From Blastopirellula marina (GTDB taxonomy: Bacteria; Planctomycetota; Planctomycetia; Pirellulales; Thermoguttaceae): 44,855 nucleotides of DNA. Shown here one piece after another: positions 149 to 43,036 of this stretch; position 1 is the stretch's first letter; each line of letters begins with the position of its first letter. The translations under genes and the position numbers were made by a program. The stretch lies in assembly GCA_020721965.1 (NCBI GenBank), contig DYLS01000033.1:1-44855 (forward strand). The letters run 5' to 3'. The notes beneath the pieces were generated by a model. That model saw nothing but the letters and a program-made list of their open reading frames with translations. It was not told the origin of the DNA and made no database searches.

Positions 149-3100
149 CTACCTGAGAAAGCCGATGAAGAAGCTGAATACCTGCTCGTCGTCCGTGGGT
201 TCCTTGCTGACAGGGAAGGCGAAGTCCAGGGCGATCGGGGCCGGGCCCATCGCCGGGATGACGATCCGCAGGCCGAATCCCGGCGCCACGCGATAATTCT
301 GGTCCCAGGAGTCCGCGGTCCGCTCGACCGTCCCCGTATCGCAAAAGATCACGCCGCGGATCAAATCGTCGGCGGTAATGGGGAACATGTACTCGGCGGA
401 GGCCAGGAGCATCATGTGCCCACCGACAGAGATGCCCATCTCGTGCGGCGACGCCCCGCGGAAATCGAAGCCGCGAAGACTGGAGTAGCCGCCCGCAAAA
501 TAGTGGTCGTAGATCGGAGTATCGCTTCCCGTCGCGCTGAATCGCGTGCTCAGCCCCAGGACATGGCGGCCCGAGCCGTCCGGCCGTTGGCTGAGCATGA
601 AATACTTCCGCAGGTCCAGCTCGGCACGGGGATAATCGTATGTCCCCACGACCTGCTCGAACGAGACCTGGAAGAGGTGCCCTTCGGTCGGCAAGAAGCT
701 GTTGTCGCGCGTATCGTGCGTGAGCGCCACCTCGAATCCGTGCAGGATGCTGGTGCCGACTGCGTCCAGCAGGTCCTGCGGGGTCCCGAAAGGCGTGATG
801 ATGGGATCGCTGATCTTGATATCCGCGCCGCGGTAGGCAATCGTTCCCGACAGGTCCGGAGTGAATTGATAGCCGAATCCGATCCGCCCCCCCAATCGCT
901 CTTCGTTCCATTCGCGAAAGTTGCGGCGATAGTAGTAACCGCTCACGCTCAGGCTGACGTTGCGATTGAGAAAATAGGGGTCGGAAAAGCTGACGCTGTA
1001 GCGCTGAACCTCCGTGCCCGGCACGGCCTCCAGGCGGAACCGCTGGCCTGCCCCGCGCCAGGCGACACCGTCCGCGATCTCACGCCAACTGCGCGGCAGT
1101 CGGGCGATGTCGAAGTTCTGCTCCTCGACCAACACCGTCCCCAGCAGACCGGCATCGGAATTGACGCCGACGCTGAACAGCAGCCGCCCCGTCCTGGTCT
1201 CGGTGACGATCGGCTCGAGCGGGAGTTCGAGGGGTGGTTCGGGGGACGGCTCGCCCGTATCCCAATAGCCGTCCCACTCTCCGGGCGGTGGGCGATCCGG
1301 AAAGAGGATCGGCTCCGCGGCGGCGGACGTTCCTCCCGCGGCTACGCCACCGGCAGGAGCAACCGCCCCGCCCGAGGGCGTTGCGAAGGCACCACCCGAG
1401 CGATCCACTGCGTTCGCACCGGTCGGATTGGCGATCCCGGAGGGGTCGGCCGGGATGGCATCCGTGCCCGCCGTCGGAACCACCTCCGGTCGCTGGGGGC
1501 TCCAAGCAACGCCGGGAGATGTGTACACCGCCGGCTGAACTGCCGCGTTGGCTTCCAGGCCGGGCTGCTGGGTATAAACCGCCCCCTCCGCCGTGGCGGT
1601 GTCTTCCGCGGGCTTGCGGTTGGGAATCACCCGGCGCCACCAGGGGGGCGGCGACGGCAGGCTCGTACCCGCCGCTGGGCCATATTGTCCCCGATAGATC
1701 GTCGGCTCCGCCGTGCTCGGCGTTTCCTCGCCTCCAGCCGGTATCACGCCATCGTTCGGAACCAGGGTTGGCGGGCGAGGGCCGGGCGCCGGATCGGTAC
1801 GCGGTGGCGAGTTCCCTTTCTCCGCCAGGACGGGCCGTTGCCGCGGACGGCCGGTATCCGGGTCCGTCACCTCCGGTGGACTGAACACGATCTTCGGCAG
1901 CACGCCTCGCGTAGGATCGACCTCGAAAATCTGGGACGCGCGGAGCCGGCGCTCGCTGTCCCGCAACTGACGGGTATCCACAATGTCGGTGGGCGCGAGG
2001 GACATGCGGTCGAGCACGGTAGTCAGCCGGGTATGCGGAAATTCGCCCTGGATTTTGACGTTGATGCGGCCGACCTGATATTTCCGCCCCTCGTCGATGC
2101 GATAGACCAGGTCCAGCATCCCCGGCTCTTCCAAAAACCGCGGATCGACTTCGACGTCGGCGAAGACATGCCCGATCGCACCGTACTGGTCCTGAAGCTT
2201 GGCGACATCGAGCTGCAATTTGTTTTGGTCGAAGTAGTCCCCGGCCTTCAGTTCCAGGTCCTTCTCCAGCTTTTCGCGCGGCAGCTTTTCGTTTCCGAAG
2301 AAGGCGATGTTCCGTACCCGGTAGCGGGGACCTTCATCGATCACGAAAGTGACCGTCACCCACTCGCGATTGGAATCGAAGGGATCGGAATGGACTTCGA
2401 CGTGCCTTCCGACCCGGGCGCGGAAGAAGCCCAGCCCGCGATAGTAGGCCGTCAACCGCTCCACGTCGGCATCCAGCGTCTCGCGGTTGAACAGTCCGCC
2501 CAGGAACCAGAGCCAGCCGGGCTTGGTTTGGACCTGCGTCCGCAGCCGGGCATCGGAGGCAATGGTATTGCCGAGGAAGTCCGTCCAGCCGATGCGCTGG
2601 CGCCGTCCCTCGTTGATCAGGAAAACGGCCCCCTGATCCTCCGGCTTGTTCCCCTCCAGAATCATCACGGAGGCATCCGGATAGCCTTTACTGCGATACA
2701 GTTCCAGGATGCGACGCTGGGCCTCTTCCACTTGCCAATTGTCGAGCGGATCGCCGGTGGCCAGCCCGGTTTCCTTGGCAAGGCGATTGGCGTCGAATGC
2801 CCGGTTGCCCGCATAGGTCACGTAGTGCAGCAGCGGGCGCGGAAGCACCTCAAACACGACCAGCCTTCCTCCGGCGACCTCCGGCGTGTAGGTTTTTACG
2901 TCCAAAAACAGGCCGGTGCGATGCAATCGCCGCACGTCTTCTTCGATCAAATCCGGATTGAACGGGCGGCCGGCACGGGTCTTGATCGCGGGCAGAAATT
3001 TCTCGCGCGGCACGCCCTTGGCCCCCACGATCCGCACTTCCGTGACCAGCGGCGCCGCGGCCCCCGCCGATTCCCCTCCCGCCGAAGCCCCCGCCGCATC

Positions 3101-3340
3101 CGCGACGCCGGGGAGCGTCAGCGGCGGTCCTGCAACCGACCGCAGCGGCGATTGTGGAAAGGAGACATCCTGCGCCGAGGCCGCCGGGAGTGGAAACGAA
3201 CCAAGACCTGTCCCAAAGGCGAACGCTACCAGCACAACCAGCAGAAATGGTACCAGTGAAGATAATGCCGCAATTGCCAAGCCCTCGACGGCAACGGCGC
3301 CTGGCTTGACGAGGAATCCGCCGCAGCCCCGCAAGACCAT
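149..3340 (-). CDS. bamA: BamA/Omp85-family outer-membrane protein assembly factor with long disordered linker
   Basis: This is a POTRA plus beta-barrel protein that inserts beta-barrel proteins into the outer membrane. From the ATG at 3340 it has about 1063 residues. The chosen start opens with basic residues and a long hydrophobic stretch, and a signal peptide ends near ASAQDVS. Upstream in-frame codons only translate a repeat block and were excluded. About five POTRA-like repeats follow at roughly residues 98-490 (for example VTEVRIVGAKGV and VIDEGPRYRVRNIAFFGN). Residues about 491-710 are a Pro/Gly/Ala/Thr-rich linker with no fold that I recognise. The barrel starts near RTGRLLFSVGVNSDAG and contains the family LRGF loop motif (SSLRGFDFRG). 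The last residue is Arg, not the aromatic residue usual for barrels. Family BamA proteins are nearer 800 residues, and the linker explains the excess. TamA-like or other Omp85 functions cannot be excluded. Confidence 0.9.
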   Translation of the reverse strand: MVLRGCGGFLVKPGAVAVEGLAIAALSSLVPFLLVVLVAFAFGTGLGSFPLPAASAQDVSFPQSPLRSVAGPPLTLPGVADAAGASAGGESAGAAAPLVTEVRIVGAKGVPREKFLPAIKTRAGRPFNPDLIEEDVRRLHRTGLFLDVKTYTPEVAGGRLVVFEVLPRPLLHYVTYAGNRAFDANRLAKETGLATGDPLDNWQVEEAQRRILELYRSKGYPDASVMILEGNKPEDQGAVFLINEGRRQRIGWTDFLGNTIASDARLRTQVQTKPGWLWFLGGLFNRETLDADVERLTAYYRGLGFFRARVGRHVEVHSDPFDSNREWVTVTFVIDEGPRYRVRNIAFFGNEKLPREKLEKDLELKAGDYFDQNKLQLDVAKLQDQYGAIGHVFADVEVDPRFLEEPGMLDLVYRIDEGRKYQVGRINVKIQGEFPHTRLTTVLDRMSLAPTDIVDTRQLRDSERRLRASQIFEVDPTRGVLPKIVFSPPEVTDPDTGRPRQRPVLAEKGNSPPRTDPAPGPRPPTLVPNDGVIPAGGEETPSTAEPTIYRGQYGPAAGTSLPSPPPWWRRVIPNRKPAEDTATAEGAVYTQQPGLEANAAVQPAVYTSPGVAWSPQRPEVVPTAGTDAIPADPSGIANPTGANAVDRSGGAFATPSGGAVAPAGGVAAGGTSAAAEPILFPDRPPPGEWDGYWDTGEPSPEPPLELPLEPIVTETRTGRLLFSVGVNSDAGLLGTVLVEEQNFDIARLPRSWREIADGVAWRGAGQRFRLEAVPGTEVQRYSVSFSDPYFLNRNVSLSVSGYYYRRNFREWNEERLGGRIGFGYQFTPDLSGTIAYRGADIKISDPIITPFGTPQDLLDAVGTSILHGFEVALTHDTRDNSFLPTEGHLFQVSFEQVVGTYDYPRAELDLRKYFMLSQRPDGSGRHVLGLSTRFSATGSDTPIYDHYFAGGYSSLRGFDFRGASPHEMGISVGGHMMLLASAEYMFPITADDLIRGVIFCDTGTVERTADSWDQNYRVAPGFGLRIVIPAMGPAPIALDFAFPVSKEPTDDEQVFSFFIGFLR
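1211..1870 (-). other. Low-complexity linker inside the BamA-like protein
   Basis: This segment codes for about 220 residues between the last POTRA domain and the beta-barrel. It is dominated by Pro, Ala, Gly, Thr and Ser, with scattered Trp and Tyr (for example LPSPPPWWRRVIPNRK and VYTSPGVAWSP). It keeps the reading frame open without stop codons. It has no predicted hydrophobic segment and no clear tandem period. It would sit in the periplasm, tethering the POTRA arm to the barrel. Confidence 0.75.
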
Positions 3341-3441
3341 GCCGCCCGCACGCAGCCGCGAGACACATCCCCCGTCGCTGCGCTGATCAAACCGTTTCGA
3401 ATGCTCAAGCTCGTGATTCGTTTGCACCGGGTAAGCGGCCT

Positions 3442-3560
3442 TCCGTATTCCTGATCGGGCATTCCTGGCGGGGTATTTCTGGTCGGGCATTCCTGATCGC
3501 GCATTGCCGATCGCGCATTGCTAATCGGGCATGGCTAATCCGGCATTCCTGGTCGCGCTA
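3442..3560. repeat. Degenerate tandem repeat block, unit about 14 bases (5' of bamA)
   Basis: About nine imperfect copies follow head to tail with consensus GGCATTCCTGATCG. Variants include GGGTATTTCTGGTCG, CGCATTGCCGATCG, CGCATTGCTAATCG and GGCATGGCTAATC. The block begins about 100 bases upstream of the bamA-like start codon. The copies diverge at different positions and there are no unique spacers, so this is not a CRISPR array. Confidence 0.8.
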
Positions 3561-11229: not shown

Positions 11230-14040
11230 TCAACGCCGAGCCGCGCGGGCCGGGGCACGATTCCATCGCAGACCCGCCTCCTCCTCCAGATTCCGGCTCC
11301 AGCGGCTATACGCCTCGATACGGTCGTACCACGAAACGGAGATGTACGTCTGCTCGTTTTGCCGCACGAAGGCCTCGTAAAGCTGGGCCGGGGAAGGCTG
11401 CATCTCGATCACCCGCACAAGATAGACCTTCGATTTCGGCTGATTCCAGGCCACACCCACTTGCCCCGGTTGAAGGCGGAACACGGCTTCCATGAAGTCG
11501 TTGCCCGGCTGATCCACCGCATCCTCGTCCGTCACCAGACCGCTGGCCGGATCCTTCCGCTTGACCTTGATGGAGCTGAGGAAGGGCGGTCTCCGCGCCG
11601 CCCACGCCAGGTTCAAATCACCATAGGTCATCCAGGTGAATGGATCTGTATCGGGGACGATGCGGATGCCCGCAAGCTCTTTATTGCCCGCCAAAAAATC
11701 GGCCAACGTCTTACCCGACTTTTCCGCCGCGGAAGCCAGACGGCTGCATTCGGTCTCAGCCAGCTTGCGGCCCTCCATCAACCGCCACGCGCGAAGCACT
11801 TCGTCCTTGACGCCCGGATCGGTAAACTCGGGAACGTGCTCTTCCTCCCGTTCGGTGGGCCAGGCCAGATACTGATTTTGATTCAGATCGAAGGTGCGAA
11901 CCGTCATAAACTCTCTCAAGTCATAAACGATCTGCGCGAACGGAGTCCCTTGCGCGTCCGCAGATTGGCCGATTTCCAGCTCGGCCATCTCCCAGCGCGG
12001 CAAGAGATCGGTGCGACCGTATTGGAAACCTTCGCGTCGGGCTAGTTCCTCCAAGTTCGGCCGTTGCGGCGGTTCCGGTGGAACGGCCTTTGACTCCTTC
12101 GCCGACTCCACGGCAGACAGGTAATTGCCCCAGGCCATCTGGTAGCGGCGCATTCCTTCCTCGATCTTGTCCAGCACCGTCCGCATCTGCTCGCCCGCGA
12201 TGAGCCGCCGCACCTCTTCGCGGACCTCGTCAAACGGACGATATTTCGATTTTTCGGGCGGGTTTTGCGATGCCGGACCGGCCTCCGTCGGCGGCTGGGG
12301 CTGCGTGGCCGAACCTGCCGAACCCGCCGGGACAGGATCGCTTTCCCCGGCCCCCGGGGCCTGTGACTGTGACTGCTGTTCCCCAGATGGCTGCGATTCC
12401 GGTGGCGAGCGCATTTCCCCAGATGGCTGCGATTCCGGCGACGAGGGCGTCTCCGGTTGCGGTTGAGAGGCGGATTCGGTGGCTGGCGCGCCGTCGGAAT
12501 TACCCGCCTGGGGCGATGATGCCTCGGGAGCCGTGGACGTCCCCCCCTGCGGCGATCCGGCGGACTCTTCTACCAAGCTCACCCAGCGGACCACACCCCG
12601 CCATCTCGCCCGCGACTGATCCGCAGCCGGTACCGGGGTTTGGCCTTCCGCGGGCTGTTGCGGCGTCGATCCCCCCTCGCCCCCTTGCCCAACCGGTTCA
12701 TCCTGAGTCGCTTTTTGCTCCGACGGCTGCCCCCCCTTCTCGTCCTTTCCTGCCTTTTCTTCTTGTACGCCCTTTTCTTTTTCTCGCTTTTCTTGTTCGG
12801 CAGCCTCTTGTTCGGGAGCCTCTTGTTGGGCGGCCGATTCGCCGCTCATCGCTGGTCCCTCGCTGGCGGCGGGAGCGGGGCCTTCACCGCCACCGCCACC
12901 CTCGGGAACCGGCATCTCCTGCGCGGGCGACGCACCCTGTTGAGACGGCGGCGTCCCCCCCGGAACAGGCACGCCCTGCTGAGACTGTGGCGAACTCCCT
13001 GGAACAGGCGCACCCTCCGAAACCGGTGAAACCCCTTCAGGCGGCAGACCGGTGCCTGCCGGCGGCGTCGGTGTCGTTTCCGGCGGTTCCGTCGAGGGCA
13101 GACCGGGACCGGTCGCGATCGGTAACGCGGCCGAGGTCTGAGGCGTCAGAAACAGCTCATCTTTCCGTTCCTCGTAAACTCGCCGCAATTCCTCCTCTGG
13201 AATAGAGTGCCCCTCCAGCCAAACCGTCACGTCCCCTTTCAGATACTCGACACGGACCTTTTCCGGGACCTTGAAACCCGGTTCGGGACTATTGGGCTGC
13301 GGTAGGTGCGTCTTCCGCTTTTCAAATAGCTCTCGCAATTGCGCGTCCGTCGGAGGCGTGACCTTGGCGGCGAATGTCTCGACGGGAACTTCGGCCAACT
13401 CCACCGAGGCCAACCGGTGAAGGCGGAGGAAATAGTCCCAACGCTGCCCCGGCGTCTCGCCTGCATAGCCGGGCAAAAACCGCCACGGATCCACTCCACT
13501 TAGCTCCGCATAACGCATGGCCAGCAAGGCGAGGCTCATCCCCGAAAAGAACGCATCTTCACTGATCCGCTGTTGTTGTATCAGACCCTGAACGTCTTGT
13601 TCGGAAATCGCGATCCCCGTGGAGCTGACCAGGTCTTGCACATAGCGGTTCACGACCGGATCGGAAACCACCATGCCCGCCGCCTCCGCGTAGCGTGCCA
13701 ACAACCACAAACGCACGACCTGCTCTTCCGAAAGCTCACCCAAGGTCTGCCGGAGCAACTGGATTTGCAGGGTATTCCCTTGTCGCCGCAGCGCGAAGTC
13801 TTGCAAGGCCTCCAAAAACCGCTGCACAGCCGCCTGGCCGGTCCACAGGTTGGCCAACTGCTGTTCCGAGAGGCTGCCGAATCGCTTGGTGACCACAACG
13901 GGCGGGATATTGGAGCCGCGCGTTGCACCAAGGTACTCCAGCAAGGCCGGAATGATCACAAAGCTGATCATCGAAATCAGGAACAGGCCGACCAACAATA
14001 CCTTGGCATTCTTGCGGAAAATCTTGAAAGGACTGGCCAT
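11230..14040 (-). CDS. SurA/PpiD-like membrane-anchored periplasmic chaperone with low-complexity insert
   Basis: The product has 936 residues. A short basic N-terminus and one membrane span (residues about 13-34, VLLVGLFLISMISFVIIPAL) anchor it with the bulk in the periplasm, as in PpiD. A SurA-N-like helical region follows (about 60-300), including LSEEQVVRLWLLARYAEAAG and the PEEELRRVYEERKDELFL helix that normally precedes the peptidyl-prolyl isomerase domain. At that point about 295 residues of Pro/Glu/Gln/Ser/Gly-rich sequence intervene (about 301-597). The downstream helix (YRPFDEVREEVRRLIAGEQM) is again PpiD-like. I see no intact parvulin domain, so a chaperone role without isomerase activity is likely. 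The C-terminal 300 residues include a second helical and beta region. Confidence 0.75.
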   Translation of the reverse strand: MASPFKIFRKNAKVLLVGLFLISMISFVIIPALLEYLGATRGSNIPPVVVTKRFGSLSEQQLANLWTGQAAVQRFLEALQDFALRRQGNTLQIQLLRQTLGELSEEQVVRLWLLARYAEAAGMVVSDPVVNRYVQDLVSSTGIAISEQDVQGLIQQQRISEDAFFSGMSLALLAMRYAELSGVDPWRFLPGYAGETPGQRWDYFLRLHRLASVELAEVPVETFAAKVTPPTDAQLRELFEKRKTHLPQPNSPEPGFKVPEKVRVEYLKGDVTVWLEGHSIPEEELRRVYEERKDELFLTPQTSAALPIATGPGLPSTEPPETTPTPPAGTGLPPEGVSPVSEGAPVPGSSPQSQQGVPVPGGTPPSQQGASPAQEMPVPEGGGGGEGPAPAASEGPAMSGESAAQQEAPEQEAAEQEKREKEKGVQEEKAGKDEKGGQPSEQKATQDEPVGQGGEGGSTPQQPAEGQTPVPAADQSRARWRGVVRWVSLVEESAGSPQGGTSTAPEASSPQAGNSDGAPATESASQPQPETPSSPESQPSGEMRSPPESQPSGEQQSQSQAPGAGESDPVPAGSAGSATQPQPPTEAGPASQNPPEKSKYRPFDEVREEVRRLIAGEQMRTVLDKIEEGMRRYQMAWGNYLSAVESAKESKAVPPEPPQRPNLEELARREGFQYGRTDLLPRWEMAELEIGQSADAQGTPFAQIVYDLREFMTVRTFDLNQNQYLAWPTEREEEHVPEFTDPGVKDEVLRAWRLMEGRKLAETECSRLASAAEKSGKTLADFLAGNKELAGIRIVPDTDPFTWMTYGDLNLAWAARRPPFLSSIKVKRKDPASGLVTDEDAVDQPGNDFMEAVFRLQPGQVGVAWNQPKSKVYLVRVIEMQPSPAQLYEAFVRQNEQTYISVSWYDRIEAYSRWSRNLEEEAGLRWNRAPARAARR
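12250..13140 (-). other. Low-complexity insert in the PpiD-like protein
   Basis: This segment encodes about 297 residues rich in Pro, Gln, Glu, Ser, Gly and Ala. There is a highly charged sub-segment (EKREKEKGVQEEKAGKDEK) and local duplications (SQPSGE twice; at DNA level a 20-base unit containing CAGATGGCTGCGATTCCGG occurs twice near 12385 and 12420). It occupies the position where a parvulin domain would be expected. Confidence 0.75.
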
Positions 14041-22855: not shown

Positions 22856-23414
22856 TGCGTTGGCGACGGGTCTTGGATCAGCGTTGCGCTCGTGACAGCT
22901 TTTGGATCGGAGTTGCGTTCGTTGGGGGGGCTTGAATCCGTATTGCGTCGGCGACGGATATCGGAAGGGCCGCTCCTCGGGTAAATCGCACGGCCAAAGG
23001 TCGCGGCGCCCCATCACGGTGCCACAAGTCCCGGTACAACGGGCCGTCACTCCGCCATCACGAGAAAGGGAATGACGGGCAGGGCGGCCCCGCACACCCG
23101 GACCTTATCAGGATAGCTCAAAATGCCTTGTTTCACGAGTGCGGCTCTTTCCGCTCCACCGGAACGCAACGACTTGTACCGATTTGGCATCCTCCGCTGG
23201 TTTTCACGCCCGATTTAGTTCCGCACACGATTTAGTTTTGCACACGATTTGTTTCGGCGTCCGACATGTTTGTGCGCATGATATGTTTTCACGCACGACA
23301 TGTTTCTGCGCTCGATTTATTTCTGCTGGGGTCGATTGGTTTCCGAGATCGATTTGCTTTCGGGATCGGTGGGCAGAGCGTTCTCGCACGCTGGATCCGA
23401 CCTTTGCCGCGCCT
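22856..23414. other. Intergenic region between FlgI-like gene and smc
   Basis: The right part is the tandem repeat block at 23201-23380. The rest, upstream of the smc start, has no gene that I can support. Short frames extending smc upstream have unlike composition and no known N-terminal extension. Confidence 0.45.
23201..23380. repeat. Degenerate tandem repeat block, unit about 17 bases (5' of smc)
   Basis: About ten imperfect copies share the approximate consensus TTTCNCGCACGATTTG. Variants include TTCCGCACACGATTTAG, TTTTGCACACGATTTG, TTTGTGCGCATGATATG, TTTTCACGCACGACATG and TTTCTGCGCTCGATTTAT. It lies about 350 bases upstream of smc and just beyond the 3' end of the FlgI-like gene. Confidence 0.8.
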
Positions 23415-25365: not shown

Positions 25366-25540
25366 CTCTCCGTTAATGTGATCTGCCCTGAAACAGACTT
25401 GCCGTCAAAGGGAACTGTCGTTAAAGGAATCTGCCGTTAGCGGACTCCGCCGTCAGAGGAATCTGCCAGTAAACGCATCTGCACCTAAAATAAACAACTA
25501 AATCTGGGGATAAAAGGAAGAATCTGTCGCCGCGGGGACG
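25366..25540. repeat. Degenerate tandem repeat block, unit about 16 bases (5' of FlgI-like gene)
   Basis: About nine to ten imperfect copies share the consensus AATCTGCCGTTAAAGG. Variants include GATCTGCCCTGAAACA, GACTTGCCGTCAAAGGG, AACTGTCGTTAAAGG, ACTCCGCCGTCAGAGG and AATCTGCCAGTAAACG. The block starts about 110 bases upstream of the FlgI-like start codon. Confidence 0.8.
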
Positions 25541-25624
25541 TGCCGCAGGTTGATCCGCGCACGCCTCGGCGGCTGGCGAGTAGGTTACCTGGCCGCGCTG
25601 GTTTCCACAATAGCGATTGACGTC

Positions 25625-25895
25625 TTCACCAGGCTCACGCCCCGGCCTGACCCAATTTATGCCTTGATCTTCCCCCGATTTATGCGCCAGTCTGATCCGA
25701 TTCACGTCCCAGCCTGCCCCGGCTCATGTCCCCAGCCTGACCCGATTCGCGCCCGGGCCTGACGCGATTTATGCCCCGATCTTACTCGATTCACGGGGCA
25801 GCCTCTGATCCGCTTCACGCGGCAGCCTCTGATCCAGTCCAATCGCCAGCCTGATCCGATTCCTGCCCCGGGATCACCAGGTTCACGCGGCAGCC
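25625..25895. repeat. Degenerate tandem repeat block, unit about 22 bases
   Basis: About eleven to twelve imperfect copies occur. The unit is made of GCCCCAGCCTGA followed by TCCGATTCAC. Copies vary to ACCCAATTTAT, CCCCGATTTAT, CCCGGCTCAT, CGCGATTTAT and ACTCGATTCAC in the second half. Two copies carry an extra CT (GCAGCCTCTGATCCG). The sequence is unrelated to the 16-base block 85 bases to its left. Confidence 0.8.
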
Positions 25896-25968
25896 GTGGG
25901 AGATGGACACTGGGGCGTCCGACTTGCATTAATCCCTCAATGCCCGTTTTCGCCGTTTGCCCAATTTT

Positions 25969-26010
25969 TCCAAACCCACCACGATTTTCTCCAAACGCAC
26001 CACGATTTTG
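25969..26010. repeat. Two-copy 21-base tandem repeat
   Basis: Two adjacent copies of TCCAAAC(C/G)CACCACGATTTT plus a final C or G differ at only two positions. It may be a young or shrunken member of the tandem-repeat class seen elsewhere in this spacer. Confidence 0.7.
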
Positions 26011-30598: not shown

Positions 30599-33500
30599 TC
30601 ATCCAACGGCCTCTCCCAGCGGCACGACCTTGCCCGGATAAACAAACGCCAGTGCCGCCGCCACGCGATTTCGGGGAAGCCCTAATAGAAGTGCCACCGC
30701 CTCGCGATACTTTTCCATTTGAGGTTGGTAGAAGGCCGCCCTCGCGGAGACGCGCCGTTCCGCCCCCACGCCCGCGCCATCAGCCGAGGCCGCATTCTCC
30801 TCCCCCTCGGTGTCGAAGACCTGATCCGTTTTGAAGTCGATGACTTGGGCCAGGAAGGGCTGACCCTTGCGATAGACCGCCACGACCCGATCGAACTGGC
30901 CACGGCAGAACGTGCCGTCGTCGAGGAAGATGGCAAAGGGCCGCTCTTTCCAAACGATCCACGTATCGCCGGGGAGGGGCCGATCCGCGTCCATGACCTC
31001 CGGCGGCAGAAAGTCGCAGCGGCCGTGGCGGGATAAGAGCTTCCGCACGGCGTCTCCCCGCAACACGCGACGAAACTCGTCCAGCAGGGCAGCCAGACTC
31101 TCGGCGGTTGCTGGACTCCCCGAAAACTCCTTTTCCGCCAGGCTCAACAGGATGCCATCGTCGGGGACGCCATCCTCCAGCCATTCGATCTGCGAAAACC
31201 AGAGATGGAGGACGCTTCCCTTGTCCAAGGCCCGTTGCGGCGGACGGCGGAAAAGATCGCGGAGCGTTCGATCTCTCCCTTCCAGGCTGTGTGGGGACAG
31301 CCACTGGACGGCGCGACAATGTTGCGGCTTCCGCGCCAGCAGAATCGGCCCTTTTTCGGGCAGGGAGGAGGGCGGGCTGGTCGGCGGTATTGTCCCGCGC
31401 GGCGACCGCCAATCCGCCTTACCATGAGACCAAAGCTTTGTCTTCGGGGGGACGGGAGGGATGTTGATTTGGTCGCTGCGCTCTTCAGCGGTCAGCGCCG
31501 CCCGCAGGATGCCCGCCCAGGTCAACGGCACGCTTTTCTCGTTGTCGCGCGAGGGGGCAATCAACAGGTACAAGGCGTGCACGGCCCGGGTCATCGCCAC
31601 GTACAACAGGCACAGCGACTCCCGTATTTCGCGGGTTCTTACGCGGTCGAATCGGGCGGCGAACTCCCGCGATACAACGTTTGCCTCGCGCAAGCTCTGA
31701 TCGAGCCAGGGACAGACCCAGTCGTATTTGCCGGAGGGCTGGCCGCGATCGGCAGCCACGTTGGGAGTTTGCCCACCCAATCTCTCGTCCAAATCGGGGA
31801 GGACGACGATCGGGAATTGCAGCCCCTTCGCGGCGTGGATCGTCATCACGCGGACCACCCCTTGGGAAGGCTCGGCCTCGCGAAGGCTTTCGATCCGGCG
31901 GATAAAATCGTCCACGCGCAGCCGACCACGCTCTTGATACGCATAGGCCGATACCGCCAATCGTTCGAGCCGCGGCAGGTCCTCCACGGCCGACCAAGGA
32001 ACCAGCCGCCGGGCGAATTCGTAAACCACGGGGCCATAGCCGCGGATCGCGATTGCCGCCCGCAGCCGCAGGGAGAGCGTGCGCCGGGCCTCGGCCTGCT
32101 GGTCGGGCGGCCAGCGGGGATATGCTGTCCAGTCCACGGCCTCCGCCAGGGGTGAATGCGCCACATGAAAGGCTGCCGCGGTATCGCCGGGATGGTCCGC
32201 CAGCCGCAAAAGCGACAAGATCGCCCGCACCCCCGGCGCAAGGTCCAACGGATTGCCCGCCTCTTCGCTCACGGGGATCCCCTCTCGCCGCAGACCGGCC
32301 AGCAGGGGCGGCATCGCATTCCGCTTGCGGAACAGCACGCCGATTTCCAGCTCGGGGTAGCGATGGTGCAGCTCCTTGATCAATCGCACGGCCCGACTCG
32401 ACTCCGGCAAAACTTCCTCCGGCCCCCCATTCTCACCGGAGTCCTCTTGCCGCGATTGGCCCGACGCGGACGCCTCCTTGCTCATGAGGACGCAGTATCC
32501 CTCCAGCTCGGTCCGCGCCGTGTCGTGCGATTGAAAGGCCCGGCCGAAACCCTTCGCCGCTTCCAGGACCAGCGAGCGATCCAGGGAATCCGAACCCGGA
32601 AGCGAAATCAAGTGTTCCACCAGAGCATCGAAAACCAGGTTCACCGTGTCGATCACGATTGGACTGGAGCGATAGCTGCGGTCCAGCGGTCGGATCTCGA
32701 TCCCGGGAAGCTCGTCCGGCAAGCCCTCGATGATCGCCGGCTCGCTCCCGCGCCAACCGTAGATCGACTGTTTCACGTCGCCCACGCAAAACAGCGTCCC
32801 CTGCGCGCTCCCGCGAACCGACTGCACGATCGGGCGGAGGGCCTCCCACTGGGGCATCGACGTGTCCTGGAACTCATCCAACAAAAGGTGCTCGATCCTC
32901 CCATCCAAGCGATATGCGGTCCGCTCAGAGTCGGGATGCTGTCGGGCCAGGCCATCCCGGACGCAGCGGGTGACATCCGCGAAGGTCAGGCCGCCTCCAC
33001 GCCGTTTGGCCGCTTCGTACGTGCGGTGAAATTCGCCGAGCAGCCGGAACATCGCCTCCGTTTGCCGCCGCAGGCGGCTCCGCAGCACCGCTTGCGCGTG
33101 CGTCACCAGCGGACGGTAGGCCATTTCCAACTCCCCGTCGATCACCTTTCCGTAATAGGTGCAGGGGTCACCCTTTTCGGATTCCCTGGCAACCGCGTTG
33201 GCGATGCCGCGGGTCACAAAATGCTGCCAGTCGCCGCTGGACGCACGCTCGATGTCGGCATCGAAAGCCTTTTTGAACCGTTGGTCCTTGATTCTCACCG
33301 CGAACAGGTCCGCCTTTTCCCGCAGCGCGCGGATTGCAGCCTGCACTTCCGGATCACTAAGCTCCGCCGCCCCGGGGATGGCATTCCAGGCGGTCTCCGC
33401 GGACTCTAGAAAGACCAGGTCGTAGAGCTGATAGACCAATTCCAGGATTTGATCGGTAACGGATCGGGCCGCGTGCCCCTTGGTCAAAAGCCGCACCCAG

Positions 33501-33982
33501 TCGGCGGCCTTCGCGCTTTCCTCGCTGGCCAGCATCTCCGAGATCGCCCGCAATCGCAACCGCCGATCGTCATCCTCTTCCAAGATGTTCCATGTCCAGG
33601 GGAGGTCCAGCTCCAAACGAAACCGCTGCGCCACACGCACAAAAAATCTGTCCAGCGTGCCGATATTGACCCGGTCGAGGCAATCCACGAGGCGCCGCAA
33701 CATGGAGCAGCAATCGTCGGCGGTGAGAGGCCGGCCGATGACCTGGGCCACCGCCGCCGCCTGCTGGTCATCCTGAGCCGCGGACCGCAGCCGGGAGAGG
33801 AGGCGATCGAGAATCTCGCGAGCCGCCTTGCGACTGAAGGTAGTGGCGAGAACACTTTCTACGGGACGCCCTGACAGGAGAAGGCCCGCCAAAGCGTGAA
33901 TCAACTGAAACGTTTTGCCCGACCCCGCCGAGGCCCGAATCAGCAAGTAGCGGGAATGTCGTTCGCGTTGGGCATGTTCCAT
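30599..33982 (-). CDS. addA: AddA-like UvrD-family helicase-nuclease
   Basis: The 1127-residue product is a superfamily 1A helicase with a C-terminal nuclease. Walker A is ASAGSGKT (17-24), motif II LLLDEFQDTS (about 366-375) and motif III GDVKQSIYGWRG (401-412). Motif V is VMTIHAAKGLQFPIVVLPDL and motif VI LLYVAMTRAVHALYLL. The PD-(D/E)XK nuclease is near the C-terminus (GQFDRVVAVYRKG, then QVIDFKTDQVFD). The upstream neighbour, 70 bases away on the same strand, is an AddB-like protein, giving the AddAB layout that resects double-strand breaks for recombination. A RecB-only reading is less likely, as no RecC or RecD is present. Confidence 0.9.
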   Translation of the reverse strand: MEHAQRERHSRYLLIRASAGSGKTFQLIHALAGLLLSGRPVESVLATTFSRKAAREILDRLLSRLRSAAQDDQQAAAVAQVIGRPLTADDCCSMLRRLVDCLDRVNIGTLDRFFVRVAQRFRLELDLPWTWNILEEDDDRRLRLRAISEMLASEESAKAADWVRLLTKGHAARSVTDQILELVYQLYDLVFLESAETAWNAIPGAAELSDPEVQAAIRALREKADLFAVRIKDQRFKKAFDADIERASSGDWQHFVTRGIANAVARESEKGDPCTYYGKVIDGELEMAYRPLVTHAQAVLRSRLRRQTEAMFRLLGEFHRTYEAAKRRGGGLTFADVTRCVRDGLARQHPDSERTAYRLDGRIEHLLLDEFQDTSMPQWEALRPIVQSVRGSAQGTLFCVGDVKQSIYGWRGSEPAIIEGLPDELPGIEIRPLDRSYRSSPIVIDTVNLVFDALVEHLISLPGSDSLDRSLVLEAAKGFGRAFQSHDTARTELEGYCVLMSKEASASGQSRQEDSGENGGPEEVLPESSRAVRLIKELHHRYPELEIGVLFRKRNAMPPLLAGLRREGIPVSEEAGNPLDLAPGVRAILSLLRLADHPGDTAAAFHVAHSPLAEAVDWTAYPRWPPDQQAEARRTLSLRLRAAIAIRGYGPVVYEFARRLVPWSAVEDLPRLERLAVSAYAYQERGRLRVDDFIRRIESLREAEPSQGVVRVMTIHAAKGLQFPIVVLPDLDERLGGQTPNVAADRGQPSGKYDWVCPWLDQSLREANVVSREFAARFDRVRTREIRESLCLLYVAMTRAVHALYLLIAPSRDNEKSVPLTWAGILRAALTAEERSDQINIPPVPPKTKLWSHGKADWRSPRGTIPPTSPPSSLPEKGPILLARKPQHCRAVQWLSPHSLEGRDRTLRDLFRRPPQRALDKGSVLHLWFSQIEWLEDGVPDDGILLSLAEKEFSGSPATAESLAALLDEFRRVLRGDAVRKLLSRHGRCDFLPPEVMDADRPLPGDTWIVWKERPFAIFLDDGTFCRGQFDRVVAVYRKGQPFLAQVIDFKTDQVFDTEGEENAASADGAGVGAERRVSARAAFYQPQMEKYREAVALLLGLPRNRVAAALAFVYPGKVVPLGEAVG

Positions 33983-34052: not shown

Positions 34053-37000
34053 TTACACCTTATCACCGATGATCCGTTCGCCGATGATCCGGTTGAAGTC
34101 GTCGAAGCCGCGGGGCGGGGGAACGGCGGGCGGCCAATACTCCCCCCGGCACACGCATCGGATGACCTCGAAGGCCGCCTCGGCCGCGGCATCCAGCGTC
34201 TGGCGGTCCCACTCCGCAAACTTCGTCCCGGTCGAACTCAGATCCTTGGGTAAAAGGAAATAGCCCAGTTGCAACTCCAGCGTCCCATCGGGCAGCGCAC
34301 CGTCGGCCGGCGGGCCCAGCGATCCCCAGTCCAGCAGCGCTTCCTGACCTGCCAGCAAATCCTCGTCCAGCAGCGATTCCTGCCCAGCCAGCGATCCCCG
34401 GTCCCGTAACGTTTCCCGGCCCAGTAATGACTGCCGGACCAGCAAGTCGTACAGCGGCAATTGCAGATCGACCCAACGGCTCGGCCTGGGGGAGTCCATC
34501 ACGATTTTCTCCCACAACGACGCCGGGATATGCTGGGGTCGCGGCTCGCCATCCCGAAGGTTTGCAAGATGGGCCTTCCCCGGATCCGTTCCGCTATCGC
34601 CCAGCTTGTAATCCAGAATGGCGTAGGTCTTCCGATCGGGGTGATAATCAATGCGGTCCACGCGACCGACGATGCTCAAGGGCTGCCCCTGCGCGACCTC
34701 CACCGGAACGGAATATGAGAACTCGCGCTCCGTGACCAGGATTCGCCAGCCCTCCGCGGCTCGCCCTGCCTGCTTGTCCGCAAATGCCAGCAAGCGATGC
34801 TTGAGTTGCTCCACCTGAATGGCGACAGCCGGCTTGGGACGCTCACCGAATCGCTCCTTGGCCAAACGACTCAGCCGAAACAGCAGAAAATCCGCGATGG
34901 CCTGGGCGTCGCTCGAATCCTTCCACCTCGATCGCCCGAAGTCGCTCAGTACCTGGTGCGCCAGGCTACCGAAGTCCAGGGCAGAAAGCTCTTCCACGTC
35001 GTCGGAGCAGGCCTCCAACCGCAAGCGGTGCCGCAGGTAATAGCGGTAGGGACAGGCCAGATAGTCGCGGAACTCCGTGACCCGCATCTCACCGGGAGGG
35101 GGTAGGTCCCGGGGTCGCGGCGGCAACCAAATGCCGCCCGGCTGGTCGCCGCCTCCTCCGAAAACAGGCGGCAGCGGGGCACTCGGCGCAACTCCCGCAA
35201 CCCGGGCTGCGACCCGGGCACGCTCCGACTCGGCCGCTGCCTGCGGCGCGGATGCCGGCATCGGCTTGGCTGGTAGCGACTCGGCTGGTGGCAGAGCTTG
35301 GGACGCGGACGGCGACTTGGGCGCTAGCGGCGGTTCCGAACCACGCACCGACTCTAACGCCGGCGGTATCTCCCGATTCGGCAGGGGCGCCGCAGCCGGT
35401 GGGAGCAGCCGGGCCGAAGCCGTCTCCGGTCGCCCGAAGTAGCTTTCCACCTGCTGAAGGAAGACCTGCTTGTCGCGCGAGAAAAGGAGCCGGCTGGGGA
35501 GCAGCGGATCACCCTCCACGCTTTGGCGCGCCGCGATCAACCGCCACGCCGTGCGGCTCTTCATCAACAGCGTCAAGCCATACGCATCCCGCGCGAAACG
35601 GCGCTGATCGTCGTTCAGCTCTAGAACCTTCCGCAACCGATTCGGCAGAAAGGGATCGTTTCCCGTGCTCGACGGCACCAAGCCCTCATTCACGTTGGTC
35701 ACGATCACAGCCGGGGCGTCATCCCAGGGCGCTTCCAGCCAACCGACCAGTTCCACGGCCTTGGGAAACGGCTTGGGCGATAAACGGCAGCCACGAAGTT
35801 GATTCTCCAAAAGGGGGAGCCAGTCCTGGGCAGCCAACCCCATCCCCACACGCTGCCACATGGAGTCCAGCAGATCCTGCCAGGCGTGCAGGGCCTCGGC
35901 GATCTGCTCGCAGGCCTCGCGGATGGTGGCCAGATCGGCGCGGGAAAGGGGAAGCGTGCCGCCATCTCCGCCCTCGTCCCCGCGGTCCCCCTCCCCGCTC
36001 GCTTCGAGCAAGGTGGTCAAAGCCGCAGCGATGCCGTCGGCCCAATCCTTCAGCGGCCTCGCCTGGCGACACATCAGCGGCCGCAAAATCTCCTCCAAAT
36101 GAGCGTGCATTTGCCGCACGAGAGCAGAGGAACGGCTCTTCGGCTCCAGGCCCGCCCGGGCATCCAGCGGCACGTGCTCTTGCACCCAGCGATCCACGGC
36201 AGAGAGGATATCAACCCCCTTGCCCAGCCGCGGCTGGAGGAATCGCTCCACCCAGGGATGGCGGACCAAGGCGGCCAGATCCTCCGCCGTCCCACGAGAG
36301 GCATAAGCGCTGATATCGCGTAACAGCCGCCAGGGGGCACTGTCGGTTACCAGCCCGCCCGGCCCATACCGGGCAGGAACGCCCAGCCTTTCCAAGATTT
36401 GCAGGAACAGCGGAGCCAGTGATTCGTCGGCCAGGCCCAGGGTGATTTCTCCCGCCGCGAAGGTACCGCTCCACTCCCGCAGCGATTCCTCCAATTTGGC
36501 GGCCTGATCGATGGCCTGATCGACGACGGCGATCCGCTCCGGCGGCGGCGGTTCGGGCAGTTCGCGCCAGGCCTCTGTCCGCAAGGCCCCGCACTCCTCG
36601 AAGCGGCCAGCCTCCGCCGCAGGCGCGGCAATCAGGGCGGTCACCTTGTCGCCCAGGCTGAGCAGCATGGTTTGCAGAATCCGCGGGGGATCGGCCACCC
36701 CCACCAACACGATGCGGCGATCGCTCCGGCACAGACCCTCCCGTGCAGCGGAAAGCCGCGCCATCTGCACATCGCCAAAGCCCTCGGCATCGAGGGTCTC
36801 CCAATAAAGCCGCTGCAACTCGGCCATGGCCTGCCAGCGGGGGCCTTCGGGAAAGCCGGGCAAAAGTCGGGGTGCCTCGCGGGCCACGTCCTGGAACGTC
36901 ATCCCCGCCCCCGCCAGCTCCCCATGCAAGCGCTGAAACCACTCCGCCGCTTGCAGCCGTTCGGGGAGGTCGTCCGAGGCCGGGGGGCGACGCAGGATTT

Positions 37001-37343
37001 GCTCCACGTCAGCAGGGGACCGCCGCCGCAGCTCCTCCACGGCGACCGCCCAGGCCAACTTCTCCAGACCAGGCGGCGCACACGGACGGCGACTCTCGTA
37101 CAACAGCTCGGGCAAGGCTCCCACCGTCACCACGCGCGGCGGAATCAAGACCCGCCTTTGCGATTGCAGCCGCTGGGCTAGAAGCTCCAGGAACCTGCGG
37201 CCCGCCCTGGCCGTGGGAAACACCGCAACCCAATCCGAACCATCAGCCGCCTCAGGCGAGGAGGCATCGCCCAGCCGCCCCAGAAACCACTCCACCGCGG
37301 AGACCAGCAGGGGACGATCCCACCCCAGGAACACCCGTTTCAT
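34053..37343 (-). CDS. addB: AddB-like nuclease/inactive helicase subunit
   Basis: The 1096-residue product has a degenerate helicase-like N-terminal two-thirds without Walker A, including VAVFPTARAGRRFLELLAQR and APAVIVTNVNEGLVPSSTGN. A Pro/Ala/Ser-rich linker (about 670-740) precedes a PD-(D/E)XK nuclease. Its catalytic region is IVGRVDRIDYHPDRKTY then AILDYKLGD, and the Q-x-x-x-Y motif is LQLPLYDLL. Directly after that motif a hexapeptide tandem repeat of about seven units is inserted. Known AddB proteins bind a 4Fe-4S cluster with one Cys before and three after the nuclease. Here a Cys lies in YLACPYRYYL but only a C-x-C remains near the end (IRCVCRGEYW), so the cluster may be missing. 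It lies first in an operon with addA. Confidence 0.87.
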   Translation of the reverse strand: MKRVFLGWDRPLLVSAVEWFLGRLGDASSPEAADGSDWVAVFPTARAGRRFLELLAQRLQSQRRVLIPPRVVTVGALPELLYESRRPCAPPGLEKLAWAVAVEELRRRSPADVEQILRRPPASDDLPERLQAAEWFQRLHGELAGAGMTFQDVAREAPRLLPGFPEGPRWQAMAELQRLYWETLDAEGFGDVQMARLSAAREGLCRSDRRIVLVGVADPPRILQTMLLSLGDKVTALIAAPAAEAGRFEECGALRTEAWRELPEPPPPERIAVVDQAIDQAAKLEESLREWSGTFAAGEITLGLADESLAPLFLQILERLGVPARYGPGGLVTDSAPWRLLRDISAYASRGTAEDLAALVRHPWVERFLQPRLGKGVDILSAVDRWVQEHVPLDARAGLEPKSRSSALVRQMHAHLEEILRPLMCRQARPLKDWADGIAAALTTLLEASGEGDRGDEGGDGGTLPLSRADLATIREACEQIAEALHAWQDLLDSMWQRVGMGLAAQDWLPLLENQLRGCRLSPKPFPKAVELVGWLEAPWDDAPAVIVTNVNEGLVPSSTGNDPFLPNRLRKVLELNDDQRRFARDAYGLTLLMKSRTAWRLIAARQSVEGDPLLPSRLLFSRDKQVFLQQVESYFGRPETASARLLPPAAAPLPNREIPPALESVRGSEPPLAPKSPSASQALPPAESLPAKPMPASAPQAAAESERARVAARVAGVAPSAPLPPVFGGGGDQPGGIWLPPRPRDLPPPGEMRVTEFRDYLACPYRYYLRHRLRLEACSDDVEELSALDFGSLAHQVLSDFGRSRWKDSSDAQAIADFLLFRLSRLAKERFGERPKPAVAIQVEQLKHRLLAFADKQAGRAAEGWRILVTEREFSYSVPVEVAQGQPLSIVGRVDRIDYHPDRKTYAILDYKLGDSGTDPGKAHLANLRDGEPRPQHIPASLWEKIVMDSPRPSRWVDLQLPLYDLLVRQSLLGRETLRDRGSLAGQESLLDEDLLAGQEALLDWGSLGPPADGALPDGTLELQLGYFLLPKDLSSTGTKFAEWDRQTLDAAAEAAFEVIRCVCRGEYWPPAVPPPRGFDDFNRIIGERIIGDKV
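34312..34449 (-). repeat. In-frame degenerate tandem repeat, 18-base unit, inside addB
   Basis: About seven imperfect copies with unit CCAGCAGCGATTCCTGCC (plus strand) are translated on the minus strand as hexapeptides RQSLLG, RETLRD, RGSLAG, QESLLD, EDLLAG, QEALLD and WGSLGP. The period is a multiple of three, so the frame is kept. The design resembles the intergenic blocks. Confidence 0.85.
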
Positions 37344-37835
37344 GCCGCCTATCCTTTTGGATCAGATCTCCCGGACCGCGATCCAAGGCAAATGCCCGCG
37401 GCACCCGCCGCCAAAAGGGACCAAGCCGTTGGGCGCAAGCGGGAAGGCCCCGGATAATTCGCAGGACGGCCCAGCCCCGAGCAGGCACCCTCGCGGCGAC
37501 GGACCCGGCCTGCATATCATCACCCCGCGGACCGCCCCAGCGGCCGCCCCCGGCACCGTCCACGCTTTACGCTAACAGACGCAGGCCGCCGTTGGCAAGC
37601 AGCACCGCTGCCATGTTATTACGGGACTTTTGCAAAGTCCTCCATCCCCGTCTGAGAGAGGGCTACAAACTGGAGTGTTGGGCAATTCAGCGAAACAAGG
37701 AAAGCTATTTTCCTGGGAAATAGCCTTCGCCGTACCTTTCTCCAGGGAATGGGCGCTCTCCAGGGAATGGGCGAGCTTGTGACGCCAAATTGCAAAAGTC
37801 CAGTTATCAGCCAAGATTGCCGCATCGATTCGCCG

Positions 37836-37922
37836 CGGGTCAAGCCTCGGGTGAAACCACGCGTGAAGTCACGCGTGAAACTGCGGATGAAGCCACGGGT
37901 GACGCCAGGGGCAAGCCTCGGG
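37836..37922. repeat. Degenerate tandem repeat block, 12-base unit
   Basis: About seven copies share the consensus CGGGTGAAGCCA. Variants include CGGGTGAAACCA, CGCGTGAAGTCA, CGCGTGAAACTG, CGGATGAAGCCA and CGGGTGACGCCA. It sits about 490 bases upstream of addB. Confidence 0.85.
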
Positions 37923-38173
37923 AAAAATAGTGAAATAGTGTCACGCAACGCTGGCCGTAACCTTACTGTGGTCTTTCACAGGGGCTCGCGGCTATGCAAA
38001 ACGGCTCGCCCGCCCCCCCGGAAGCCCGCCCGTCAGCTATATTTTACAAAGCCCCCCGACCGGCCATCCGCTCATGCACCCGGACGCACGACGAGGGGAC
38101 ACGGCGGGCGACCGGAATTTGCCCACGCTGTCGTATCGGATAGGCTGTGGTATTGGACCGCCCCGCAACTCCG

Positions 38174-38222
38174 CCGGTCGCCCAGCCAACCTTTCGCGAA
38201 TCGCCCAGCCAGCCTTTCGTGA
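38174..38222. repeat. Two-copy tandem repeat of about 23 bases
   Basis: Two adjacent copies of TCGCCCAGCC(A)(A/G)CCTTTCG(C/T)GAA differ at very few positions. It precedes the larger 20-base block upstream of galU. Confidence 0.7.
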
Positions 38223-38240
38223 AAGGGACGGAGGCCGGCC

Positions 38241-38433
38241 ATTCCCGGATAGAGCAACGTATTCCAGGAAAAAGCAAGGCATCCCAGGATAAGGTAGGCT
38301 ATTCCAGCATGAGGGAAGGGTATGCGGGATAAGCCACTCCGGGTTAAGGACGGGCATCCCAGGAAGAGCCGCTTTCCCAGGATACGGATGGCTAATCTAG
38401 GATAAGGATGGGCACCTCGGAAAAGGACGAATC
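38241..38433 (+). repeat. Degenerate tandem repeat block, 20-base unit, abutting the galU start codon
   Basis: About ten copies share the consensus ATTCCAGGATAAGGATGGGC. The last degenerate unit, ACCTCGGAAAAGGACGAATC, ends immediately before the ATG at 38434 and provides the AAAAGGA ribosome-binding site. Most units carry an AGGATAAGG core that itself resembles a Shine-Dalgarno sequence. Confidence 0.85.
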
Positions 38434-39366: not shown

Positions 39367-39466
39367 CCCAGATACCGTTGCCAATACGATAGCAGATACC
39401 TTCACAGATACCGTCGCACATGCCATCGCACATGCCATCGCCCACACCGTCGCCCACACCGTCGCA
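39367..39466. repeat. Degenerate tandem repeat block, 12-base unit (between galU and the GHMP kinase gene)
   Basis: About eight copies share the consensus CACATACCGTCG. CACATGCCATCG and CCCACACCGTCG each occur twice in perfect tandem, and the left copies are looser (CAGATACCGTTG, CCAATACGATAG). The block starts about 36 bases beyond the galU stop and ends about 107 bases before the kinase start. Confidence 0.85.
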
Positions 39467-42783: not shown

Positions 42784-42927
42784 CACGACACCACAACATC
42801 ACGCCTGAACCATCCCACGGGCCAACGCTTCACGCCGGACCGCAGGAAACATCCAAACAAAACGCCCGAACCACGCATCCGAACAACACATCCACACAAA
42901 ACATCGGCCCAGAACTTCCGCACAGAA
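42784..42927. repeat. Degenerate tandem repeat block, unit about 13 bases (5' of the tiny lipoprotein)
   Basis: About eight to ten loose copies share the consensus AACATCCGAACAA. Variants include AAACATCCAAACAA, AACGCCCGAACCA, CGCATCCGAACAA, CACATCCACACAA and AACATCGGCCCAG. The left end is poorly defined. It begins about 27 bases upstream of the lipoprotein start codon. Confidence 0.7.
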
Positions 42928-43036
42928 CCGGGATCGCCCGCGGCGCTTGGGTAGGTGTAGCGACCTTGGCGGGATGTCGGGCGACGCACCGCGGGCAATC
43001 CATCGGCCTGGCGTGAAGAGGACACACTTGGCTCGC

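Follow-up and report, generated by a model that had tools for sequence, protein, structure and literature searches.

The window analysed here is the 44,855-nucleotide contig DYLS01000033.1 of Blastopirellula marina (contig C301 of genome G000, which comprises 4.95 Mb in 380 contigs), and it carries on its minus strand the gene pair addB and addA, with an in-frame tandem array of 18-bp units inside the part of addB that encodes the nuclease domain. The addB coding sequence (CDS), at 34053..37343 (minus strand), encodes 1096 amino acids with a C-terminal PD-(D/E)XK nuclease domain, recognised from Pfam (PDDEXK_1 at residues 755-918, E 2.7e-22), from fold matches and from the orthologue alignment. 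Directly downstream, at 30599..33982 (minus strand), addA encodes 1127 amino acids and was assigned by its Pfam domains UvrD-helicase (E 2.5e-34) and UvrD_C; the NCBIfam AddA and RecB-like models match its product below their own cut-offs. The curated AddB equivalog models likewise fall short, TIGR02786 scoring 90.2 bits (cut-off 486.5) and TIGR02773 scoring 30.8 (cut-off 903.7), two models that, judged by their names, describe alphaproteobacterial and Gram-positive AddB. Because these cut-offs are missed, while fold, motifs and the neighbouring addA agree, the window protein is called here an AddB-like orthologue. A phmmer search with AddB against PDB sequences and a single-protein AddB search of the genome contigs each returned no relative.

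Two short motifs, known as DYK and QxxxY, mark the nuclease domain. The first, DYK (residues 911-913, 34605..34613, minus strand), is read as part of the nuclease active site, and the second, the Q-x-x-x-Y motif QLPLY (residues 961-965, 34449..34463, minus strand), stands directly before the array, just where the preliminary description of this DNA had placed it. In an alignment of AddB with 14 relatives (A1), D911, K913, Q961, L962, P963 and Y965 are invariant and L964 is nearly so; in the alignment of 70 nuclease domains (A2), D176, K178, Q226, L227, P228 and Y230 are invariant.

The array occupies 34305..34448 on the minus strand as eight in-register units, six of them clear (34323-34430). 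In coding-strand order from 34448 to 34305 it reads DLLVRQ/SLLGRE/TLRDRG/SLAGQE/SLLDED/LLAGQE/ALLDWG/SLGPPA, where the first unit closes the QxxxY helix and SLGPPA, at the other end, is weak, having 4-11 of its 18 bases in common with other units. All seven in-frame hexapeptides listed in the preliminary description (RQSLLG, RETLRD, RGSLAG, QESLLD, EDLLAG, QEALLD and WGSLGP) are present in the addB open reading frame (ORF), and the span given there for them, 34312-34449 (138 bp), is corrected here to 34311-34436 (126 bp), the earlier span having overshot by 13 bases at its high end and missed one base at its low end. The array is in frame and free of stops, and its clear units 1-6 follow a loose pattern in which Leu takes position 2 and Gly or Asp position 4.

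Adjacent clear units are alike in only 8-13 of 18 bases (units 3 and 5 in 15 of 18), so the earlier suggestion of a recent expansion is not supported in a strong sense. The periodicity is nevertheless well beyond chance: the best 126-bp segment has 59% identity at lag 18 (z 7.55). Shuffling the 48 codons of the array 20,000 times never gave so high a value, and 300 codon shuffles of the entire gene reached at most 5.99 over lags 9-30. Tandem Repeats Finder (TRF) by itself recovers only 34331-34395, with 3.7 copies and 72% matches, and the array is therefore degenerate. The addB array consists of head-to-tail copies of a unit of at least 10 bp, repeated beyond chance, as a minisatellite does. 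It also keeps a second frame open, giving a 150-aa ORF (34063-34515, minus strand) with a Gly/Ala-rich repeat of its own, which is probably a by-product of the array.

Absence from orthologues and the predicted loop

The array is absent from all 14 relatives from other genomes in alignment A1 (14 of 29 non-own loci were used, the rest being cut off or more divergent), including the closest, the G003 orthologue, which is 66% identical; it is also absent from L019, L021 and L026, which lie outside A1 and in which the site is visible. A broader survey drew on 253 named relatives and kept the best 80, which come from planctomycetes as well as other phyla. The motif columns are present in 79 of these named loci, two of which end there, and 77 cover the loop between the motif and the next strand, which has 61 residues in the window AddB and 12-30 in the 77 named orthologues (15 in 42 of them). 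Aligning orthologues, as had been proposed, thus finds the insert missing from every one that covers the site, closest included, and conservation of the hexapeptide array in distant AddB proteins, which would have made it an ordinary domain element, is not seen in any of those 77. As to copy number, the array is absent already from the closest available relative, and no strain-level relatives were found. G003 was taken as the nearest sampled relative from the identities of two proteins, AddB and one other, both of which are much closer to the window's than their G001 and G002 counterparts.

The G003 loop is somewhat longer than the commonest 15 residues, as might be expected if the insert were ancestral and had been lost in other lineages. 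That history is very unlikely in our judgement, for it needs parallel loss in the other lineages, and no hexapeptide repeat is discernible by eye in the G003 loop.

In seven of the 80 named loci AddB and AddA appear to form a single ORF of about 1800-2180 aa (L156:2578-8805, L184:1717-8139, L164:2657-8755; also L157, L162, L185 and L187). The three that were scanned have a PD-(D/E)XK nuclease followed by the N- and C-terminal domains of a UvrD helicase, and a search of open-licence PMC papers brought up no report of AddB-AddA fusions.

The nuclease domain was modelled with AlphaFold2, aligned with 69 related domains drawn from the 80 named loci; the seven fusion-like long ORFs, L163 (too long) and the truncated L193, L206 and L208 were left out. 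The model has a mean predicted local distance difference test score (pLDDT) of 87.6, with 259 of 361 residues at 90 or above. Within it, the first unit belongs to the confident QxxxY helix (model residues 226-238), and the other units, with pLDDT of about 51-55, form a stretch before the strand at 288-295 that contains one short helix (259-268). The best matches in fold comparison, which included Foldseek, are the AddB chains of the solved AddAB complexes 3u4q, 3u44, 4ceh, 4cei and 4cej, presumably all from Bacillus subtilis, with Z 18.2-19.6 over 280-287 residues and a root-mean-square deviation of 3.2-3.4, despite only 16-18% sequence identity. Since the core is confident and AddB chains are the best fold matches, the nuclease fold and motifs are predicted to be intact, and a flexible loop is the simplest reading of the insert; the idea that the array alters the structure of the domain is not borne out by the model, nor is there support for an amphipathic helix. 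The pLDDT of 51-55 over units 1-7 suggests disorder without proving it.

Differences among units 1-6 fall on codon positions 1, 2 and 3 in the ratio 34:42:36, as against 240:186:448 between the window and G003 AddB over 967 aligned codons (contingency P 7.5e-5, with unit comparisons that are not independent). The third-position excess is absent among the units, and the array peptide appears unconstrained. An alternative view is that selection maintains the array for a role in AddB, such as docking, or as a repeat like the hexapeptides of left-handed beta-helices. The loosely kept Leu and Gly/Asp positions of units 1-6 and the intact frame speak for such an element, which we nonetheless consider improbable given the even spread of differences over codon positions, the prediction of a coil that includes one short helix and in which no strand was modelled (though confidence is low there), the lack of any Pfam repeat family in AddB at E 1e-3, and the absence from relatives that cover the site.

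Tandem arrays across the genome and its relatives

Array density was measured with TRF at score 50, with runs of N removed and pieces under 500 bases dropped. The G000 sample is not random and consists of 40 loci, namely 33 contigs at regular numbers and seven further stretches of five of them; three congeners were found (G001, G002 and G003), two of them fragmented, and each genome was sampled in part. G000 has 19.3 arrays per 100 kb (75 in 389,403 bases), the window 37.9 (17 in 44,855) and G003 29.5 (17 in 57,691), as compared with 2.5 in G001 (2 in 78,871) and 2.2 in G002 (9 in 400,000); treating sites as independent, P is 1.5e-14 for G000 versus G002 and 5e-10 for G003 versus G002. Densities were 7.0 and 5.5 in G051 and G042 (200,000 bases each), 2.0 in E. 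coli K-12 (50 kb) and 8.7 in the 80 named loci pooled (111 in 1,274,233), and in five dinucleotide shuffles the G000 set gave 1-4 arrays, the G002 set 0-4 and the named loci 9-15. Per-locus medians, computed with N runs kept, differed as well (Mann-Whitney P 0.0015), at 6.4 for 54 named loci and 16.5 for 20 G000 loci, the window among them. A similar distribution holds for perfect duplications of 10-45 bp, with 18 in the 434 kb of G000 plus window and 3 in 57.7 kb of G003, compared with 2 in 400 kb of G002, none in 78.9 kb of G001, and, over 200 kb of each genome, 1 in G051 and 2 in G042. Sixteen of the 18 in G000 and the window consist of two copies.

The preliminary description had taken the addB array as a sign of a general local expansion process, and this proposal is upheld for this genome, in that it carries an excess of mostly private tandem arrays; G003 is array-rich too. 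Among the 92 arrays of G000 and the window, 80 are without a similar sequence anywhere else in the 434 kb sampled; TRF match percentages run from below 65 to above 95, and no single period is favoured. Such a spread of match levels over mostly private arrays is what continuing local duplication would leave. Base composition does not distinguish the noncoding arrays (A 0.210, T 0.217) from noncoding DNA outside arrays (A 0.210, T 0.207), strand not being resolved. A motif common to the arrays was looked for and rejected, the top 8-mers occurring in 5 of 92 arrays, where random segments gave a mean maximum of 4.74 and a highest value of 7 in 100 draws.

Dispersed repeats such as the Rickettsia palindromic elements and repetitive extragenic palindromic (REP)-type repeats offer another possible source for an insert of this kind, and 12 of the 92 arrays do have some similar sequence elsewhere in the sampled genome. 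We regard a dispersed or mobile copy as a very remote prospect for addB, whose array matches only its own position, no second match to its DNA being found in a search of the whole genome, and whose first unit grades into the codons of the helix. Two recurring unit families, one around CGTCGAAATGACA and one around GCGAGAAGTCTT, were seen among those 12 arrays, with sites at L042:12931, L095:16787, L098:7413 and L110:12019; and at L046:3446 and 5450 and L103:16672.

An artefact of assembly or binning might also be suspected in a genome of 380 contigs, tandem repeats being a reported source of assembly error (PMC6868369). This is the least credible of the alternatives, as copies alike in 8-13 of 18 bases are not produced by read collapse or false duplication, the reading frame is kept, and the excess of arrays recurs in the separate genome G003.

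In G000 and the window, 20 of 23 coding arrays have a period divisible by three, compared with 22 of 69 noncoding ones (Fisher P 5e-6), and the view that the period within a gene reflects selection holds in this genome. Coding and noncoding counts were 1/1 and 0/1 in G001, 4/4 and 2/5 in G002, 10/10 and 1/4 in G051, 6/8 and 0/3 in G042, and 61/73 and 16/38 in the named loci.

Origin of the array and of the genome-wide excess

We think it likely that the array is an in-frame minisatellite, the product of an excess of short tandem duplications in this lineage that was amplified here in a tolerant loop. What has been observed is the array itself, lying in the loop and missing from orthologues, with unit differences that show no excess at third codon positions; an abundance of arrays in the sampled parts of two genomes; and, in G000, the frame filter. 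The following course of events can be proposed around these observations. The codons that end the QxxxY helix (DLLVRQ) would have been the seed unit and would have been duplicated in tandem. Amplification to about seven or eight 18-bp copies would have followed this first duplication, probably by slipped-strand replication, and the copies would then have diverged. The insert may have survived by being in frame, stop-free and within a loop between the QxxxY helix and the next strand that was already variable in length, and its peptide is most likely functionally inert. In these terms the addB array would belong to a wider excess of tandem duplications, about 10-45 bp long, in the genome, seen also in G003, for which one inherited cause in both genomes may be supposed, with selection keeping mostly multiples of three in the genes of this genome.

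Several findings weigh against this interpretation. Of the two-copy perfect duplications, 9 of 16 are without junction microhomology and 4 of 16 have at least 3 bases of it (5.8% expected), and because of those nine the first step is not clearly slippage between pre-existing repeats. The excess is not unique in the phylum, as high array densities occur at other planctomycete loci: among 54 named loci of at least 12 kb, five exceed 20 arrays per 100 kb, with L185 at the top with 26, and two of 20 G000 loci of at least 12 kb have none. Raising the TRF score to 80 narrows the gap, to 4.6 per 100 kb in G000 and 10.4 in G003, with 1.3 in G001, 1.5 in G002 and 2.1 in the named loci. The frame filter was read from gene calls made by a simple codon-usage heuristic and does not carry over to G003, where contigs are short and gene calls poor or uncertain, and where periods divisible by three account for 5 of 10 coding arrays and 1 of 7 noncoding ones, a result that speaks against a clean pattern. 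The codon-position test is weakened by the non-independence of the unit comparisons. A 36-bp super-period is suggested in the addB array, where identity along its full length is 61% at lag 36 and 54% at lag 18, but it falls short of significance (P = 0.2 when units 1-6 are placed in every possible order). The placing of G003 as closest relative derives from the identities of two proteins and not from a tree. Finally, with copies too diverged to show recent growth, and with three congeners, the birth of the array is not datable.

The lack of junction microhomology in nine of the sixteen duplications would fit a different origin for the genome-wide duplications, in which staggered breaks are filled in and joined by Ku and LigD, or error-prone synthesis by Y-family polymerases takes the place of slippage. 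We hold this to be quite improbable, since Ku was found in none of six genomes, both array-rich ones included (the control matched 1 of 14, Bacillus subtilis), and the Y-family polymerase IMS domain (PF00817) in none of G000, G001, G002 and G003 (the control matched 11 of 14); LigD was not searched for.

A cause for the excess favoured above, that of short tandem duplications in the lineage, was also sought among other repair genes. MutS1 was matched in all four congeneric genomes, above the cut-off in three and as a partial match (1-466 of 840) in G003; SbcD was above the cut-off in none of the four (matched in three) and does not separate array-rich from array-poor genomes, and the same is true of Ku and the Y-family polymerases. 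Loss of recJ was considered as a common cause, recJ being present in G001, G002 and G003 and not found in G000. The G000 contig C224 (L246) ends 509 bases after the last shared gene, and recJ of G003, with which it was compared (L238), begins 629 bases after it; synteny of the recJ neighbourhood with G002 is not kept. The absence from G000 is most likely an assembly gap, and loss of recJ is rejected because the G000 contig ends there and the array-rich G003 has the gene. Loss of exonuclease VII was set aside too, xseA being found in G000, G001 and G002 and not in G003 (87% complete), which makes it not common to both array-rich genomes. Nor can the AddB insert itself be the cause of the genome-wide excess, which G003 has without the insert. 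The case for hairpin-driven slippage at addB is weak, the array strand folding somewhat better than its shuffles (z -2.09, with 2 of 200 shuffles as good).

More tentatively, and with rather less than even confidence, we suggest that a lineage formed by this genome and G003, close to Thermogutta terrifontis, may have a heritable bias to tandem duplications of about 10-45 bp with low microhomology, arising without Ku or Y-family polymerases, which would fill noncoding DNA with mostly private degenerate minisatellites and repeatedly lengthen proteins, AddB among them.

Other repeats in the window and comparison with known systems

Two more features of addB are of interest. At the C-terminus, at 34062..34091 (minus strand), a second in-frame duplication consists of two 15-bp copies encoding RIIGE RIIGD, alike in 13 of 15 bases and present as a single copy in the G003 orthologue. 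At 35130..35399 (minus strand) lies a Pro/Ala/Ser-rich linker insert, residues 649-738, identified from the pairwise comparison with G003 and from A1, which is absent from that closest orthologue except for about 12 residues and has a borderline 36-bp periodicity (z 5.85, compared with a highest value of 5.65 in 20 shuffles).

Elsewhere in the window, TRF places a 14-bp array of 7.8 copies at 3447..3555 (score 99), mostly outside the predicted CDS 152-3490, and its lag-14 z of 10.67 is the strongest periodicity peak in the window. Three arrays at 12379..13016 (minus strand), with periods of 18, 15 and 39, all multiples of three, lie in the CDS 11233-14040. The product of that CDS, also on the minus strand, has an N-terminal hydrophobic segment and a long Pro/Gln/Glu-rich linker, which is longer than in the aligned congeners. 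Further TRF arrays are 17-bp intergenic arrays at 23211..23368, an intergenic cluster with periods of 16, 22, 24 and 21 at 25400..26009, a cluster with periods of 18, 12, 23 and 20 between addB and the next gene at 37739..38307, a 12/24-bp intergenic array at 39410..39466 and a 13-bp intergenic array at 42849..42928.

The known cases of variable number tandem repeats (VNTRs) in bacterial proteins are mostly in surface proteins, whereas the host here is the nuclease domain of a DNA-repair enzyme. The likeness to VNTRs lies in the in-frame units, which change the length of bacterial proteins (PMC2884548). Prokaryotic satellites, surveyed in PMC6749651, are similar in forming tandem arrays, many of them in genes, with bacterial lengths mostly multiples of three. 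The criterion of that survey, a decamer present in at least four copies, is stricter than the TRF one applied here, so that the densities are not directly comparable; by it, only 18 of 119 bacteria had more than 4 satellites per Mb. The nearest published analogue that we found is the tandem-repeat load of the Borg extrachromosomal elements. According to PMC9879509, Borgs have many arrays of independent origin, both intergenic and in ORFs, and in this they resemble the present genome; in ORFs the Borg arrays add amino-acid repeats that are commonly disordered, as the low pLDDT suggests for the addB array. The Borg repeats are further described there as perfect and enriched in A, with very strong selection acting on those inside ORFs. 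In contrast, the addB copies are degenerate and far from near-perfect, with 8-13 of 18 bases alike in adjacent clear units; the noncoding arrays show no overall enrichment in A or T, with strand left unresolved; constraint on the peptide is not apparent; and the contig is part of a bacterial genome.

No report of an array excess in Thermogutta or in planctomycetes was found among the titles and abstract openings of the top-ranked open-licence PMC articles. In-frame minisatellites as such are well known; less ordinary is a nine- to thirteen-fold difference in array density within one GTDB genus, as measured in the sampled parts of the genomes. This contrast provides a natural setting for mapping how short tandem duplication is genetically controlled in bacteria, and the case of AddB suggests that such growth, where it falls within a loop, is tolerated even by the nuclease domain of a core repair enzyme.

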